A stretch of DNA of 38,186 nt, taken from a virus. A model generated the notes under the pieces. It was not told the origin of the DNA, made no database searches, and saw nothing but the letters and a program-made list of their open reading frames with translations. The DNA is taken from positions 1 to 38,186 of the IMG/VR virus record IMGVR_UViG_3300020467_000015; one strand, written 5' to 3'. The stretch's first letter is position 1; each line of letters starts with the position of its first letter. A program made the translations under genes and the position numbers. Shown in pieces: positions 28,119-36,708 of this stretch.

Positions 28119-28745
28119 CTCAATGATTTTATTTGCTATTGCTTTATGTCCTTCTGCACTTGGATGCCCACCATCTAGACCATTTGCATAATAGTTTGGA
28201 TTATCTCTTGTATGTTTAAATAAATCCATATGCGTCCACACTGGTTTATAATCTTTACACAAACTTCTCCAATATCCTATTTTGTTACGATAGAATTTTT
28301 CTGGTCTTCTTAGTGTGGGTTCATAGTGATCTGCTATAATAGACACATATTTTTGACCAATGCTCTTGCAAAACGAATCAAATAAAAATATATTCTTCCA
28401 CAAATTCTCATTACCTAATACATCATTGTATACTCTTGTATAGTAATATCTCTGTTTCATACTACTTACCCTTTGTGGTGTCCACGATAGAGGATCTCCA
28501 TTTTCAACATAATACTCTATTCTTGAAGTCACGGTATATTGTATGACAGCTATGTCTGCTTTATTATTCTGAAGGTAATTAATTGAGTTTCTTACAATGC
28601 AATCATTACTGATGCCACATTCTGATAAGTTAGTGTGTTGAGATTTATAATGATTAGAGACAAGTGTGCTGAACCTTTCATTATGTCTGTCTTTTAATTC
28701 ATCTCCCCATGTTATGCTACACCCACTAAAAAACAGTGACATCAT
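28101..28745 (-). CDS. SGNH-like protein, copy 1
   Basis: A 214-residue protein with SGNH/GDSL-hydrolase layout. Block I is FFSGCSITWG (residues 5-14), with the nucleophile serine in a G-C-S context instead of G-D-S. Block II is NLSECGISND (about 39-48). Block V is DGGHPSAEGH (about 191-200), an intact D-x-x-H dyad. The family includes esterases, carbohydrate O-deacetylases and acyltransferase partners. No signal peptide is present, so it would act inside the cell. The ATG at 28745 has GAGG six bases upstream; the frame is open to 28769. It overlaps the carbamoyltransferase end by about 20 bases. Of the four paralogues here, this is the one with the complete D-x-x-H. Confidence 0.75.
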   Translation of the reverse strand: MMSLFFSGCSITWGDELKDRHNERFSTLVSNHYKSQHTNLSECGISNDCIVRNSINYLQNNKADIAVIQYTVTSRIEYYVENGDPLSWTPQRVSSMKQRYYYTRVYNDVLGNENLWKNIFLFDSFCKSIGQKYVSIIADHYEPTLRRPEKFYRNKIGYWRSLCKDYKPVWTHMDLFKHTRDNPNYYANGLDGGHPSAEGHKAIANKIIELIDAI

Positions 28746-30102
28746 ACTTTTCCTCAAATAATTTTGCATCTTGAATTGTATTTACCATGGGTTTTCCCTT
28801 TATATTCAGAGATGTATTCAATAATACAGGACATCCAGTACGTTCGTACCAGCACTCCAGTATGGGTCTTAGAATACTGTCTGAGTCTTTTGGTACTGTT
28901 TGTACCCTAGCAGACCCATCGACGTGTATACAGGCAGGTATCGCCCTTGGTTGCTTACATTTATAAACGTAAGACATATACCTTGATTGTTTAGGCATGT
29001 CAAAGTAATCTTGACAGTGCTCTTCAAGTATAGCAGGTGCGAAAGGTCTGAACAAATCTCTTTTCTTGATGTTGTTTACTAAGTCTTTTGTTTCTGCTTG
29101 TCTCGGATCCGCCAGAAGACTTCTATTGCCGAGAGCACGAGGACCAAACTCAGCACGACCATTCGCAACCCCCACGACTCTTTTTTCGAGGAGTGCATCA
29201 ACAACTCTCCTTGGATCACAGAACTTTTGTATATTATATCCTAGGTAGGGACTGAAGGCAACCTTCTTACCATATGCTAGACATGCTGCCCCCAGAGCAC
29301 CCCCTGCGTCACCAGGACAAGGCATAATCCATAAGTTATACATTTCCCTCAATCCAGTGTTTACTACACAGTTGAGGGCAACACCACCCCCATAGCATAT
29401 GTGTTTGCTATATTGTGCTGCTCTAGCAAATATATTATTGAGTTCTAATTGTAATATTCTCTCTGCACTCTTTGCGATATCACACTTATCATAGTCTCCT
29501 ATCCTCGCTCCCTTGTGATTATTTCTATGTAACTGTCTCTCGACCACATTCATATTCACTGGTTTGCCATACGCTGCCATACCCATAAAGATATACTCTT
29601 CATCAAGTGGACGCAAACCTGCCCACTTAGTGAGTGCTGAGTACCATAAACCTATAGATTGCGGATACCACTGCGACCATCTCTTTTTATATACTGCTTT
29701 TCCGTCTTTATATTCCGCAGTCCATATTGATGTAGTATCCCATTCTCCTATACTATCAACCACTACACATGCTGCTTGTTCAAACGGAGAGGTTTGAAAC
29801 GCTGCTGCTGCATGAGACTTATGATGACTGTGATACTCAGTGGGTTGAAGTGATAGATTCCTAGGTCTATACCATGCCTTCTGACCTGCAAAGAACTGTC
29901 TAGTCCTCTTCAACCAAGGTCTCTCATAGAACGCTATCTTACCATCAGTAGAAATCAATAGTGCTGTAGACGCTGCTGTCAGATCAAGATGCTTGTCATG
30001 CTTTATCTTTGAGTATCTCTCTGAGTGTGCTGCATAACAAATTTTACCATTGTTGACTACAGCGACTGCTGCGTCATGGAATCCTTCAGCGAATCCAATC
30101 AT
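28726..30102 (-). CDS. NodU/CmcH-family carbamoyltransferase
   Basis: A 458-residue enzyme expected to transfer the carbamoyl group of carbamoyl phosphate, through carbamoyl-adenylate, to a hydroxyl on a sugar or metabolite. All family landmarks are visible: GFHDAAVAVVNNG at 7-19; the metal-binding H-x-x-x-H of SHHKSHAA at 92-99; VVVDSIGEWDTTS at 113-125; GGGVALN at 238-244; GDAGGALGAA at 264-273; the hallmark GRAEFGPRALGNRSLLADPR at 315-334; HVDGSARVQTV at 393-403; and LLNTSLNIKGKP at 427-438. It is shorter than typical bacterial members (about 570 residues), but both the Kae1-like and YrdC-like halves remain. GGGGA lies upstream of the ATG. Overlaps with both neighbours indicate one operon. 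Confidence 0.93.
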   Translation of the reverse strand: MIGFAEGFHDAAVAVVNNGKICYAAHSERYSKIKHDKHLDLTAASTALLISTDGKIAFYERPWLKRTRQFFAGQKAWYRPRNLSLQPTEYHSHHKSHAAAAFQTSPFEQAACVVVDSIGEWDTTSIWTAEYKDGKAVYKKRWSQWYPQSIGLWYSALTKWAGLRPLDEEYIFMGMAAYGKPVNMNVVERQLHRNNHKGARIGDYDKCDIAKSAERILQLELNNIFARAAQYSKHICYGGGVALNCVVNTGLREMYNLWIMPCPGDAGGALGAACLAYGKKVAFSPYLGYNIQKFCDPRRVVDALLEKRVVGVANGRAEFGPRALGNRSLLADPRQAETKDLVNNIKKRDLFRPFAPAILEEHCQDYFDMPKQSRYMSYVYKCKQPRAIPACIHVDGSARVQTVPKDSDSILRPILECWYERTGCPVLLNTSLNIKGKPMVNTIQDAKLFEEKYDVTVF

Positions 30103-33107: not shown

Positions 33108-34021
33108 TGATTGAGCAAAATATCACTCCTAGACACCCAAAAATGCTACTAATAGCTGGATGGCGTTGGGCAGCGACCTCGCCATTGATCTATACTCTAC
33201 AAAGATACTCAAAATATGCACATTTTGGTTATACAAAGCGGTTCACATCTAGTTTAAATACCGATATCTACGAACGTGTATGCAATAATACATGGGAAAA
33301 CTATAAAAGTTATGAACCATCCAGTCATCGAATGAATCTCACTGTTGATCTTGAACCTCTTCATGATTTTTCTACCACACATTTTACTCGACTCATGGCA
33401 GGTGACCATACTATATCAAAGCAAATTGATTTTTTTCATGCACTTCATGATCATGTCCTTACTAAAGGTTATAAGTCTGTGGGTATCATGTTGACAGATG
33501 AACAAAAATATAGTGAATTACTCATGTCTGAGTTTGATATCAAGGTTCTTTGGATTGCAAGAGATCCTGTTCGTCGTGCCTTTTCAGAATTTCTTCACCA
33601 CTCTAAAATAAATTGCGATTTCTATCGTTTAAACGAAAAAATGTGCTTATTCTTTCGTTTTCATGTTATTGATTATATAAAAAAGATCAATAAATTAAAT
33701 AAAAAATTTGGTGAGGATAAAACTCATATAGTTGTTATGGAAGAACTATGGGAAGGAGATGGCACTGCTAAAAAAGAACTTTCAGAGTTCTTAGACCACC
33801 CTATTACAGACCTTTGGAAAAACCTTTACTGTCCTGATAGAGGACACCATGTAAAATACGACAAAGATGTCCCTTGTCAAGCATATGGACAAGACTTATT
33901 TGAACTTACACCTGATTTATACAATAATATAAAAAAACAATATCAACATATCTACGATGATTGGGAGAATCATTTTGGTTCTCTTCCTCTACATTGGGGA
34001 CAACCAGTAGCGTATTCATGA
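33107..34021 (+). CDS. PAPS-dependent sulfotransferase-like protein (E)
   Basis: A 304-residue protein. The phosphate loop region is GWRWAATSPL at about 18-27, with R replacing the usual small residue; the 3'-phosphate motif ARDPVRRAFSEF is at 151-162. A VVMEELWEGDGTAKKELSEFL stretch in the C-terminal half matches the segment that precedes the last helix of sulfotransferases. E is a tandem duplicate of F, with long identical DNA stretches between them. The ATG at 33107 overlaps D's TGA, and E's TGA overlaps F's ATG. Compared with F, it lacks about ten residues before the DEQKYSELLMSEFDIKVL block. The acceptor is unknown. Confidence 0.8.
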   Translation: MIEQNITPRHPKMLLIAGWRWAATSPLIYTLQRYSKYAHFGYTKRFTSSLNTDIYERVCNNTWENYKSYEPSSHRMNLTVDLEPLHDFSTTHFTRLMAGDHTISKQIDFFHALHDHVLTKGYKSVGIMLTDEQKYSELLMSEFDIKVLWIARDPVRRAFSEFLHHSKINCDFYRLNEKMCLFFRFHVIDYIKKINKLNKKFGEDKTHIVVMEELWEGDGTAKKELSEFLDHPITDLWKNLYCPDRGHHVKYDKDVPCQAYGQDLFELTPDLYNNIKKQYQHIYDDWENHFGSLPLHWGQPVAYS

Positions 34022-34944
34022 AACCAAAAATGCTGATATGGGGTGGGTTTGGTTGGTGTGCAAGTTCTCCTCTCGTATACACACTTCAAAGAAATGCGAA
34101 GTATGCTCATTTTGGTTATACAAAAGTATGGAACTATTTTAAAGAAGAAAATAAAGGTATGTTGGATTTTTACCAAGTTTTTGATGGAACTTGGGAAAAC
34201 TATAAGAGTCATGAAGAACCATCTCATCGATTGAATCTTACAGTTGATCTTGAACCTCTTCGTGATTTCTCTCTTTCACACCTTAAAAAACTTATGGAGA
34301 GTGAAAGGACAGAAAAAAACTTGATAGATTTTTATCACGCACTTTATGATCATGTTATTACTAAAGGTTATAAGTCTGTAGGTGATTATAACTACCGTAG
34401 TAATTGTGTCAAAGGTGATGAAAAAAAATATAACGAATTACTCATGTCTGAGTTTGATATTAAGGTTCTTGCAATTGTAAGAGATCCTATTCGTCGTACT
34501 TTTTCACGCTATCTTAATAAAAAGCGTATGGCAGAAACTGAAAATCTGCTTCTCAGTAATCTTAATTGGAAGGGAACTACGATGAAGATTACTGATTATA
34601 CGAAGAAGATAAATGCACTCTATGAAACATTTGGTAGAGATAGAACTCATGTTACTGTCATGGAAGAACTATGGGAAGGAGATGGTACTGCCAAGAAAGA
34701 ACTCTCACAGTTCCTAGACCACCCGATTACAAATCTGTGGAAAAACCTTTATGCTCCAGACAGAGGTCACCTTGTAGAGTATGATAAGGATGTACCCTGT
34801 CAGGCATATGGACAGAACTTAGCAGAACTTACACCTGAGATGTATTATCAGTATCGTAAGGAGAATGATCACATATATCAAGCATGGAAACAGGAATTTG
34901 GATCACTTCCTTTACATTGGGGAGAACCAATTGAATATAGTTGA
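34018..34944 (+). CDS. PAPS-dependent sulfotransferase-like protein (F)
   Basis: A 308-residue protein from the ATG at 34018 (ATGA with E's stop; the frame is open from 33961). The phosphate loop GFGWCASSPL is at 10-19 and the 3'-phosphate motif VRDPIRRTFSRY at 154-165. It is the closest paralogue of E: both share AKYAHFGYTK-type, LTVDLEPL, LLMSEFDIKVL and MEELWEGDGTAKKEL segments and a C-terminus ending GSLPLHWG. The stop overlaps the -35 of the downstream sigma70-type promoter, so the D-E-F operon ends here and a new transcription unit starts. It is presumed to sulfate the same class of acceptor as E, perhaps at another position. Confidence 0.82.
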   Translation: MKPKMLIWGGFGWCASSPLVYTLQRNAKYAHFGYTKVWNYFKEENKGMLDFYQVFDGTWENYKSHEEPSHRLNLTVDLEPLRDFSLSHLKKLMESERTEKNLIDFYHALYDHVITKGYKSVGDYNYRSNCVKGDEKKYNELLMSEFDIKVLAIVRDPIRRTFSRYLNKKRMAETENLLLSNLNWKGTTMKITDYTKKINALYETFGRDRTHVTVMEELWEGDGTAKKELSQFLDHPITNLWKNLYAPDRGHLVEYDKDVPCQAYGQNLAELTPEMYYQYRKENDHIYQAWKQEFGSLPLHWGEPIEYS

Positions 34945-34969
34945 CAAGTATATGAAGAGGTGTTATACT
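34941..34969 (+). promoter_or_regulatory. Strong sigma70-type promoter
   Basis: Perfect -35 TTGACA (34941-34946), 17-base spacer, -10 TATACT (34964-34969, 5/6). It reads into a leader of about 140 bases and then the 35117-38182 genes. The sequence suits host RNA polymerase, so this unit may be expressed early. Confidence 0.85.
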
Positions 34970-34987
34970 ATATTTGTTGGACGCAAC

Positions 34988-35092
34988 ATGGGAGTGACTG
35001 AATAAACTTACTGGCAACTGCTGGTTAAGGTGATGAGACACAGGTGGTGCTGCTTCGAGAGAAGAACCGACTCAACCAGTCGGGTCTCAGGC
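34988..35092 (+). ncRNA. Structured 5' leader (putative regulatory RNA)
   Basis: This untranslated stretch can fold into a three-way junction. The outer stem is GAGAC/GTCTC (35035-39 with 35084-88). One arm is CTTC-GAGA-GAAG (35053-35064), a stem capped by a GNRA-type tetraloop. The other arm is CCGACT-CAACC-AGTCGG (35067-35083). A six-codon frame (MGVTE, 34988-35005) lies upstream. It could be a riboswitch-like leader, an sRNA or an RNA processing site. It was found by eye and no covariation is available. Confidence 0.4.
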
Positions 35093-35128
35093 AATAACGT
35101 TTTTACTACTGTAGTAATGCCCGTTATT
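35093..35128 (+). promoter_or_regulatory. Nested palindrome at the start of the small membrane gene
   Basis: AATAACG (35093-99) pairs with CGTTATT (35122-28), enclosing TACTAC-T-GTAGTA (35104-35116). The ATG at 35117 sits at the foot of the inner stem. It could hide the start codon in the RNA or bind a dimeric protein in the DNA. Confidence 0.5.
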
Positions 35129-35272
35129 TGTTGGTACACAGGAATCCAACCTCCCTCTTTCTTTTATATTATTGTTATGCCTTTATTTTTGATAGTACTC
35201 GGAGCATCTGGTATCGGTGCTGCCATCGCACTCTACATCATGCGTAAATATGACGACCCTAATACATTATGA
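35117..35272 (+). CDS. Small membrane protein
   Basis: A 51-residue protein from the ATG at 35117. Residues 15-42 (FFYIIVMPLFLIVLGASGIG and onward) form one long or two short membrane spans with a G-A-S-G-x-G-A-A helix-packing pattern, followed by a charged tail MRKYDDPNTL. There is no clear ribosome-binding site. The frame is open back to a GTG at 35030, and an internal ATG at 35177 is also possible, so the start is uncertain. Its TGA overlaps the next ATG (ATGA), pairing it with another small membrane protein. A holin-like or envelope-modifying role is possible, but no family is recognised. Confidence 0.6.
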   Translation: MPVICWYTGIQPPSFFYIIVMPLFLIVLGASGIGAAIALYIMRKYDDPNTL

Positions 35273-35445
35273 ATCCTAAACTCAAACTCTTTGTCAAAGT
35301 TGGATTTCCTCTTGTCATTATCATACAACTGACTTCAGTTCTCTTCATGCTTGCTTATAATGGACGAGACAAAGCATTGTCTTGTAAGACACTCGGTGAG
35401 TACCTTGTATGTAAACAAGTTGAGATACCTAAAGGTGTCAAGTGA
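35269..35445 (+). CDS. Small membrane-anchored protein
   Basis: A 58-residue protein with one predicted membrane span at residues 7-30 (LFVKVGFPLVIIIQLTSVLF onward) after a basic N-terminus (MNPKLK), suggesting N-in topology with a short C-terminal domain outside. That domain has two cysteines (C39 and C48) that could form a disulphide. It starts within the stop of the upstream membrane gene and its TGA overlaps the GTG start of the first SGNH-like gene (GTGA), so all three are probably translated together. Function is unknown; it could anchor or partner the SGNH-like proteins. Confidence 0.68.
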   Translation: MNPKLKLFVKVGFPLVIIIQLTSVLFMLAYNGRDKALSCKTLGEYLVCKQVEIPKGVK

Positions 35446-36041
35446 AGATATACTTTGATGGTTGTTCATGGACAATGGGAGCAGAATTAGAGAATCCAGA
35501 AGAAGAGAGATTCTCGAAGTTACTATGTGATGAGTTGGGGGCAGAAGAAACTAACGTAGCAAAAAGTGGTGGGTCAAATGATCGAATCGTCAGAAATCTT
35601 TTAGTTCGTAAGACTATTGAAGACTATGACTTGGCAGTGATACAGATGACCTTACCTACTCGCACTGAATATTATGATGACAAGTGGGTCAGAGTGAATC
35701 CACCTCATAATTTCAAAAAACCATTTTATCAACGTCAATCTATTACTAAGTGGGTAGATGAGGTAGGAATGAAACATGGTGATTTCTGGAAGTATTGGTA
35801 TACGGACATTACAAATGTAAAATACTTTGAAACCATAGAGAAAATTCATTATCACACAATTCGGAACATTCGTAAGATACCTTTGATATTACTTACAAAC
35901 AATCGGTGGACTAAACTTCCTTTCGATCTACAATTGGAAAATGGCACTCGTGATATGAAACATAGATATAATCACCCCAACAAAGAATATCATAAGTTGA
36001 TAGCAAAACAAATTAGAGAGATTTACGATGATACTTTTTGA
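35442..36041 (+). CDS. SGNH-like protein, copy 2
   Basis: A 199-residue paralogue of the 28101-28745 protein. Block I is YFDGCSWTMG (residues 4-13; G-C-S instead of G-D-S), block II is AKSGGSNDRIVRN (about 40-52), followed by an LAVIQMTLPTRTEYY segment. The C-terminal H-P motif (RYNHPNKEYH) keeps the histidine but has no acidic residue three positions before it, so the catalytic acid appears to be lost or relocated. The start is the GTG at 35442, with AAAGG six bases upstream. It overlaps the next gene by 14 bases. No signal peptide. It may be a weak esterase or acyltransferase, or a non-catalytic carbohydrate binder. Confidence 0.72.
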   Translation: MKIYFDGCSWTMGAELENPEEERFSKLLCDELGAEETNVAKSGGSNDRIVRNLLVRKTIEDYDLAVIQMTLPTRTEYYDDKWVRVNPPHNFKKPFYQRQSITKWVDEVGMKHGDFWKYWYTDITNVKYFETIEKIHYHTIRNIRKIPLILLTNNRWTKLPFDLQLENGTRDMKHRYNHPNKEYHKLIAKQIREIYDDTF

Positions 36042-36708
36042 TGGTTGTTCTTGGACTTTTGGATGTGAATTGGCAGAAGATGTCGAAAAGATAGAAGAAC
36101 AAAGATGGTCAACTCTCGTATCAAATCATTTCAATACTGAGCACGTAAACCTCAGTCATTGGGGAAAATCTAATGATGGCATTCTTCGCACCACAATGCA
36201 TCATTGTGAAAACCACAAAGTAGACCTTGCAGTCATTCAATTTACGAAGAATAATCGAAGAGAGATACTGAATGGAGATTCTTATTATCGTATGAAGCAT
36301 GGTAAAGCTAACACATTGAAGGATCAGGCATGTCTCGATTATTACAAATATTTGAATACTCCAGAAGATAATGTTGCAAACTACTACAAGAATAAATTTT
36401 TACTTGAGCAATATTTCAAAGTTCACGAGATACCATACTTATTTGTCAAAATAAATCTTAAAACAACAAAATATTATTCAAGGAAACACTCTGAGACCGA
36501 CTCGGTAAAACCATCTTCATGGCAAATGATGAGCGACCCTTCACCTGTGCCCTGTCTCTATGATGTTTTAGGTGGTTGGAATAATCCTCCTTACTACGAT
36601 TATGAGACTTACAGAAAGCAAAAAGTAAAAAAGGAAGGAACTCACCCAAACGCAAAGGGTCATCGTAAGATAGCAGATTTCCTTATAGATAATATAGATC
36701 TTTCTTAA
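36028..36708 (+). CDS. SGNH-like protein, copy 3
   Basis: A 226-residue paralogue. Block I is LFDGCSWTFG (residues 3-12), block II HWGKSNDGILR (about 47-57), then an LAVIQFTKNNRREIL segment. The C-terminal block is EGTHPNAKGHRKIADFL, where E-x-x-H replaces D-x-x-H, a plausible working dyad. The ATG at 36028 is preceded by AGAGAG and overlaps the upstream stop. Relative to the other copies it has an insertion of about 25 residues before block V (KPSSWQMMSDPSPVPC region). It probably has the same kind of activity as copy 1 with a different acceptor. Confidence 0.73.
   Translation: MILFDGCSWTFGCELAEDVEKIEEQRWSTLVSNHFNTEHVNLSHWGKSNDGILRTTMHHCENHKVDLAVIQFTKNNRREILNGDSYYRMKHGKANTLKDQACLDYYKYLNTPEDNVANYYKNKFLLEQYFKVHEIPYLFVKINLKTTKYYSRKHSETDSVKPSSWQMMSDPSPVPCLYDVLGGWNNPPYYDYETYRKQKVKKEGTHPNAKGHRKIADFLIDNIDLS

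Follow-up and report, generated by a model that had tools for sequence, protein, structure and literature searches.

Comparison of manA RNA copies suggests an autonomous RNA gene with changing sites in cyanophage genomes

Since 2010, the manA RNA (Rfam RF01745) has been regarded as an orphan riboswitch candidate; among its carriers are some of the most abundant phages of the ocean. It was described in the 5′ untranslated regions of mannose, fructose, nucleotide, chaperone and photosynthesis genes, a riboswitch or leader role was proposed for it by Weinberg et al. in 2010 (PMC2864571), and Rfam files the family as cis-regulatory. Our literature search found no data on manA transcripts. Here we report the analysis of a manA copy in a virus sequence of 38,186 nucleotides (IMG/VR record IMGVR_UViG_3300020467_000015, positions 1–38,186; hereafter the window), together with its homologues in phage genomes and viral contigs. 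The comparison, which covers more than 100 copies, suggests that manA stands alone as an RNA gene and changes its site from one phage genome to another. On the sequence evidence, we consider manA to be probably an autonomous noncoding RNA gene, and favour this reading over that of a riboswitch.

The window encodes T4-type baseplate wedge genes, and its baseplate protein is closest to those of a marine single-cell virus and of Synechococcus phages. A Nol-like carbamoyltransferase gene (28,726–30,102, minus strand; PHROG 1601, E = 5.5e-94) lies near the tail genes. The only gathering-level Rfam match in the window is manA, which scores 188.6 bits against a gathering score of 55.2 (E = 2.9e-51) and covers positions 1–192 of the 192-position model; membership of the family is certain. 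The structure itself is not new, as manA is already a known cyanophage family, found here in 37 phage records, and the window shares its occurrence in T4-like cyanophages and marine samples. A preliminary description of the window had noticed a structured leader behind a promoter and proposed a covariance search against Rfam, and it is this search that identifies the fold as manA. The three-way junction, GNRA-capped arm and nested palindrome recognized in that description are all helices of manA (Table 1). Its boundary was drawn too early, at position 35,128, since the RNA goes on, first with another hairpin and then with the 3′ strand of the closing helix; the start codon at which the palindrome was said to end is not there, and the first conserved open reading frame (ORF) begins at ATG 35,177.

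Table 1. Coordinates of the manA RNA, its helices and the neighbouring features in the window
Feature	Position	Strand	Remarks
Sigma-70-type promoter	34941–34969	+	TTGACA 34941–34946, 17-nt spacer, TATACT 34964–34969
manA RNA (RF01745)	34975–35155	+	Full length; Rfam match runs to 35160
P1 hairpin UGUUG-GACG-CAACA	34975–34988	+	At predicted transcription start
Six-codon frame ATG GGA GTG ACT GAA TAA	34988–35005	+	Not a conserved gene
Closing helix	GGGAG 34990–34994 with CUCCC 35151–35155	+	Paired in 57/57
H2	34997–34998 with 35030–35031	+	100% of cells paired
H3	35010–35015 with 35020–35025	+	96.8% of cells paired
Three-way junction	35034–35089	+	Stem 35034–35039/35084–35089; 97.7% paired, with two-sided changes at all 6 pairs
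Three-way junction arms	35041–35052; 35053–35064; 35067–35083	+	Second arm GAGA-capped (GNRA)
Nested palindrome, outer stem	35093–35099/35122–35128	+	95.7% paired, with two-sided changes at all 7 pairs
Nested palindrome, inner stem	35103–35106/35113–35116	+	70% paired, among the weakest elements
Last hairpin GUUGG...CCAAC	35130–35150	+	100% paired; 3/5 pairs with double changes
31-aa membrane-type ORF MPLFLIVLGASGIGAAIALYIMRKYDDPNTL	35177–35272	+	Likely read-through target
58-aa ORF, then SGNH-like ORFs 35442–36041 and 36028–36708	35269–36708	+	Sub-threshold DUF6071 and GDSL matches

The folding energy of the window RNA is unremarkable (z = −1.28), and covariation was therefore used as evidence for the fold. 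The alignment comprised 57 manA sequences, taken from phages, viral contigs and a single metagenome-assembled genome (MAG). Compared against the Rfam structure minus P1, 93.8% of its cells were paired, as against 84.9% in shuffled alignments and at most 47% when the partners were slid by 1–3 columns. Changes on both sides were seen in 28 of the 47 pairs (14.6 after shuffling), with 216 double-change cells against 62 in the shuffled set. The stems are thus preserved by compensatory change among homologous leaders, a test on which the preliminary description had staked its fold. In the closing helix, one pair switches from A–U to U–A in 5 of the 57 sequences. The tetranucleotides UGGU (35,045–35,048) and ACCA (35,075–35,078), a candidate loop–loop contact, are invariant across the alignment, so covariation is silent on this contact. 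P1 is too variable for alignment; nevertheless, of 118 copies among the matches listed, 113 have a stem ahead of the GGGAG. Its GACG loop (34,980–34,983 in the window) occurs in 91 of those 113 listed copies while the stem sequence is free to change, and this constancy possibly reflects a contact with protein or RNA.

The host-type TTGACA–17–TATACT promoter named in the preliminary description is present in the window, where it matches the consensus at 11 of 12 positions, has a TG before the −10 box and overlaps, with its −35 box, the stop codon of the upstream ORF (33,961–34,944). A near-consensus sigma-70 promoter, defined as agreeing with TTGACA/TATAAT at 11 or all 12 positions, with a spacing of 16–18 nt and a location within 80 nt upstream, was found at 95 of 103 manA loci among the matches listed, compared with 9 of 1,814 background 80-mers. 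The P1 stem begins 3–7 nt past the −10 box in 108 of 109 listed loci, so the transcript should start at P1. A predicted promoter with P1 at the expected start is what an autonomous small RNA gene, transcribed on its own, has. Four promoterless loci (L010, L058, L110 and L120) directly follow a tRNA gene with zero gap, and a fifth (L059) adjoins a tRNA-like sequence.

Two further observations concern the promoter region. In 40 of 109 loci among the matches listed (L013, L014, L024, L037, L046 and others, and L139 of phage P-HM1), the −35 box lies inside the terminator hairpin of the upstream gene, in the arrangement GAGGG-TTGACA-CCCTC-TTTTTTT, so that TTGACA forms the hairpin loop and the T-run serves as the promoter spacer. 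Moreover, L189 matches the window sequence up to the promoter, whereas L179 matches it from manA onward and has a different promoter region, a split similarity that places manA at a recombination joint (34,941–35,272 of the window).

In the genomes and contigs searched, manA occurs at most once. Infernal searches of 20 complete cyanophage genomes found exactly one copy in 14 and none in 6, 12 of the 14 having been picked because BLAST had already shown manA; one copy was found in each of 40 viral contigs selected for manA and in 9 of 50 further contigs, and in neither set were there ever two. The sites differ. The RNA lies between gp23 and small genes in P-HM1, MED4-213, MbCM1, P-RSM4, S-SSM5 and P-RSM1, between pebS and gp32 in P-HM2, next to pstS in P-SSM3 and P-SSM4, upstream of talC in P-RSM6 and P-TIM68, between regA and purL in P-SSM2, next to a ferredoxin gene in P-SSM7, and between a hypothetical gene and tRNA-Gly in S-SSM7. 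P-HM1 and P-HM2, which are filed under one species, have manA at two different sites, each of which is empty in the other phage; as the flanks are 88–93% identical and the manA copies 78.6%, the two sites seem to hold distinct alleles. The P-HM1 copy has its promoter within the gp23 terminator and is followed by its own terminator. Near relatives retain the gp32 or GC432 gene in place without manA. The ORFs downstream of 103 loci among the matches listed represent about 40 families, of which gp32-like (22) and transaldolase (8) are the largest. In 98 of 100 listed loci, the RNA and the next ORF share a strand, and this ORF often lies 10–50 nt past the RNA; in these counts the ORF calling is simple and several phage records are duplicates. 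The loci were gathered through a conserved sequence word, which, with counts over the matches listed, biases the set towards close relatives.

As for host range, the manA matches come mostly from phages isolated on Prochlorococcus, and most gp23-bearing records are named Synechococcus phages; a rough tally thus points to a possible association of manA with Prochlorococcus phages. A search for bacterial copies returned 17 genome-scan matches, of which only L128, L129, L131 and L137 are manA-like, the rest being likely chance matches to the search word; these four are on marine MAG or single-cell contigs and may be phage.

On the 3′ side, an intrinsic terminator lies within 160 nt of the RNA in 33 of 106 loci (background, 64 of 2,736), a U-tract directly behind it in 49 (138 of 2,736) and a tRNA gene in 10 (16 of 2,736), among the matches listed. 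The terminators, where present, lie past the conserved fold. The tRNA starts exactly where the manA match ends in L021, L048, L080 and S-SSM7, and 2–13 nt later in L049, L085, L032 and L006. About 60% of the listed loci have neither a terminator nor a tRNA before the next ORF. The window is among them: no terminator, tRNA or U-tract was found behind its manA copy, only a U-rich stretch, and this inspection of its 3′ side showed no expression platform either. Separately, a hairpin of the form GACCTAAGATGCAACTC...GAGTCGGGCAGATGGTC recurs 5–20 nt past manA (L016, L041, L045, L050, L185 and others), with a conserved asymmetric internal loop and often with Ts behind it; it had no Rfam match in L016 or L018. 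A late-promoter-like motif, [ACT]TAAATA, occurs within the first 50 nt past manA in 16 of 57 loci that lack a U-tract, compared with 123 of 3,660 background sequences, and the next gene in such loci may carry its own late promoter.

In the window, the 31-aa ORF begins 21 nt past the end of the RNA on the same strand. Homologues of this ORF lie downstream of manA in L035, L179, L185, L188, L190 and L192, a recurrence that makes it likely that the window transcript reads through into this conserved 31-codon membrane-protein gene. The preliminary description had placed small membrane proteins, SGNH-like genes and a sulfotransferase under the control of the leader, and only the first of these links finds support, in the form of this plausible read-through. 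Of the first SGNH-like ORF, viral contigs contain 76 relatives, most of them lacking manA; an RNA copy was found in the surrounding DNA of 8 of the 76 and is directed away in 7 of the 8, in a set in which some flanks are short and a more distant manA could escape detection. Among these loci, the gene order of the window recurs only in the near-identical L179. The sulfotransferase resemblance consists of weak matches, below the Pfam cut-off, in genes that precede the promoter. A PHROGs search of the genes flanking the RNA returned no matches, and Pfam returned a single one (DUF6071), under the cut-off.

The single copy, the changes of site, the own promoter, the terminators and the tRNA junctions are all explained if manA is a free RNA gene. 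Under this reading, the host sigma-70 RNA polymerase would start at the P1 hairpin, presumably soon after infection, and the RNA would fold into a closed domain whose ends are clamped by the GGGAG/CUCCC helix. Its 3′ end would be made by a terminator or by processing at an adjoining tRNA; in the window, it would be made by processing, or the transcript would read through into the next genes. The RNA would act in trans, because genomes keep a single copy of it although neither its site nor the adjacent genes are constant. We hold the full form of this proposal, an autonomous, trans-acting RNA made from a host promoter early in infection, sometimes set free by tRNA processing, kept as a single mobile copy and typical of Prochlorococcus phages, to have a little better than an even chance of being right. 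The preliminary description had left the element as riboswitch-like or a phage small RNA; single copy number, changing neighbours, an own promoter and occasional contact with tRNAs favour the latter, and the riboswitch-like alternative loses ground. Counting against an autonomous gene, among the matches listed, are the majority of loci with neither a terminator nor a tRNA, the shared direction of the next ORF and the recurrence of gp32 and transaldolase as neighbours. A strong promoter alone would equally explain the codirectional next genes, since it must not run against its neighbour. A search for a trans target in host rRNA found complementarity of at most 9 nt to either 16S or 23S rRNA, no better than in shuffled sequences, and pairing with either rRNA was rejected.

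The principal alternative is the one proposed with the family (PMC2864571) and adopted by Rfam, in which manA acts in cis as a riboswitch or leader, sensing a metabolite or the state of infection and controlling the next gene. The close, codirectional downstream ORFs are what it predicts, many unpaired bases are highly conserved, and the terminators behind one third of the copies could be expression platforms. However, a riboswitch would be expected to stay with a particular gene or pathway, and manA does not: the downstream ORFs belong to too many families for a consistent target, the neighbourhoods differ across the 14 genomes, and near relatives keep the gp32 or GC432 gene without the RNA. 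In addition, the terminators lie beyond the conserved fold, an expression platform would have no space where a tRNA gene directly adjoins the RNA, and there is one copy per genome. These observations disfavour a role in cis, and we regard the riboswitch reading as unlikely.

Alternatively, manA and its promoter could form a portable expression cassette, in which the 5′ hairpin and fold shield the mRNA or tRNA precursor that follows and sense nothing. The promoter and fold do travel as a unit, P1 is at the 5′ end of the predicted transcript, and the next genes are diverse yet codirectional. A stabilizer, however, needs neither near-invariant internal loops nor a three-way junction, and should occur several times in a genome, whereas only one copy is kept; in P-HM1, a terminator even separates manA from the next gene. 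We find this explanation distinctly improbable. A leader-peptide attenuator built on the six-codon frame, which does exist in the window, can be given almost no credence: the frame sits inside the fold, not ahead of it as the preliminary description had it, P1 occupies the transcript up to the ATG and makes a ribosome-binding site impossible, and a conserved peptide is excluded by the start position, which among the matches listed reads ATG in just 49 of 118 copies (ACG in 19, CGG, TTG and TCG in 9 each, CAG in 8) and an in-frame TAG in 7.

If manA is a free RNA gene, the hunt for a ligand through its neighbouring genes has been misdirected, and what matters instead is the host or phage component that the RNA binds. 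P-HM1 and P-HM2, with their common Prochlorococcus host and differently placed manA copies, provide a natural experiment.

Among known systems, the window copy agrees with the manA family in sequence, in its full-length fold and in its occurrence in T4-like cyanophages and marine samples, and differs from the published contexts in preceding a 31-aa membrane ORF and SGNH-like genes. The RNAs wcaG (RF01761) and PhotoRC-II (RF01717) are likewise structured cyanophage RNAs filed as cis-regulatory, but the window contains no Rfam match to wcaG, PhotoRC-I or PhotoRC-II. The glutamine riboswitch (RF01739), which lies within a few hundred bases of manA in L049 and L075, is a separate element with no match in the window. 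Bacteriophage T4 encodes two stable RNAs, C and D, in its tRNA cluster, with no function assigned to them. As stable phage RNAs transcribed beside tRNAs, they would be a parallel to manA; unlike them, manA usually has its own promoter and often lies away from tRNA genes.
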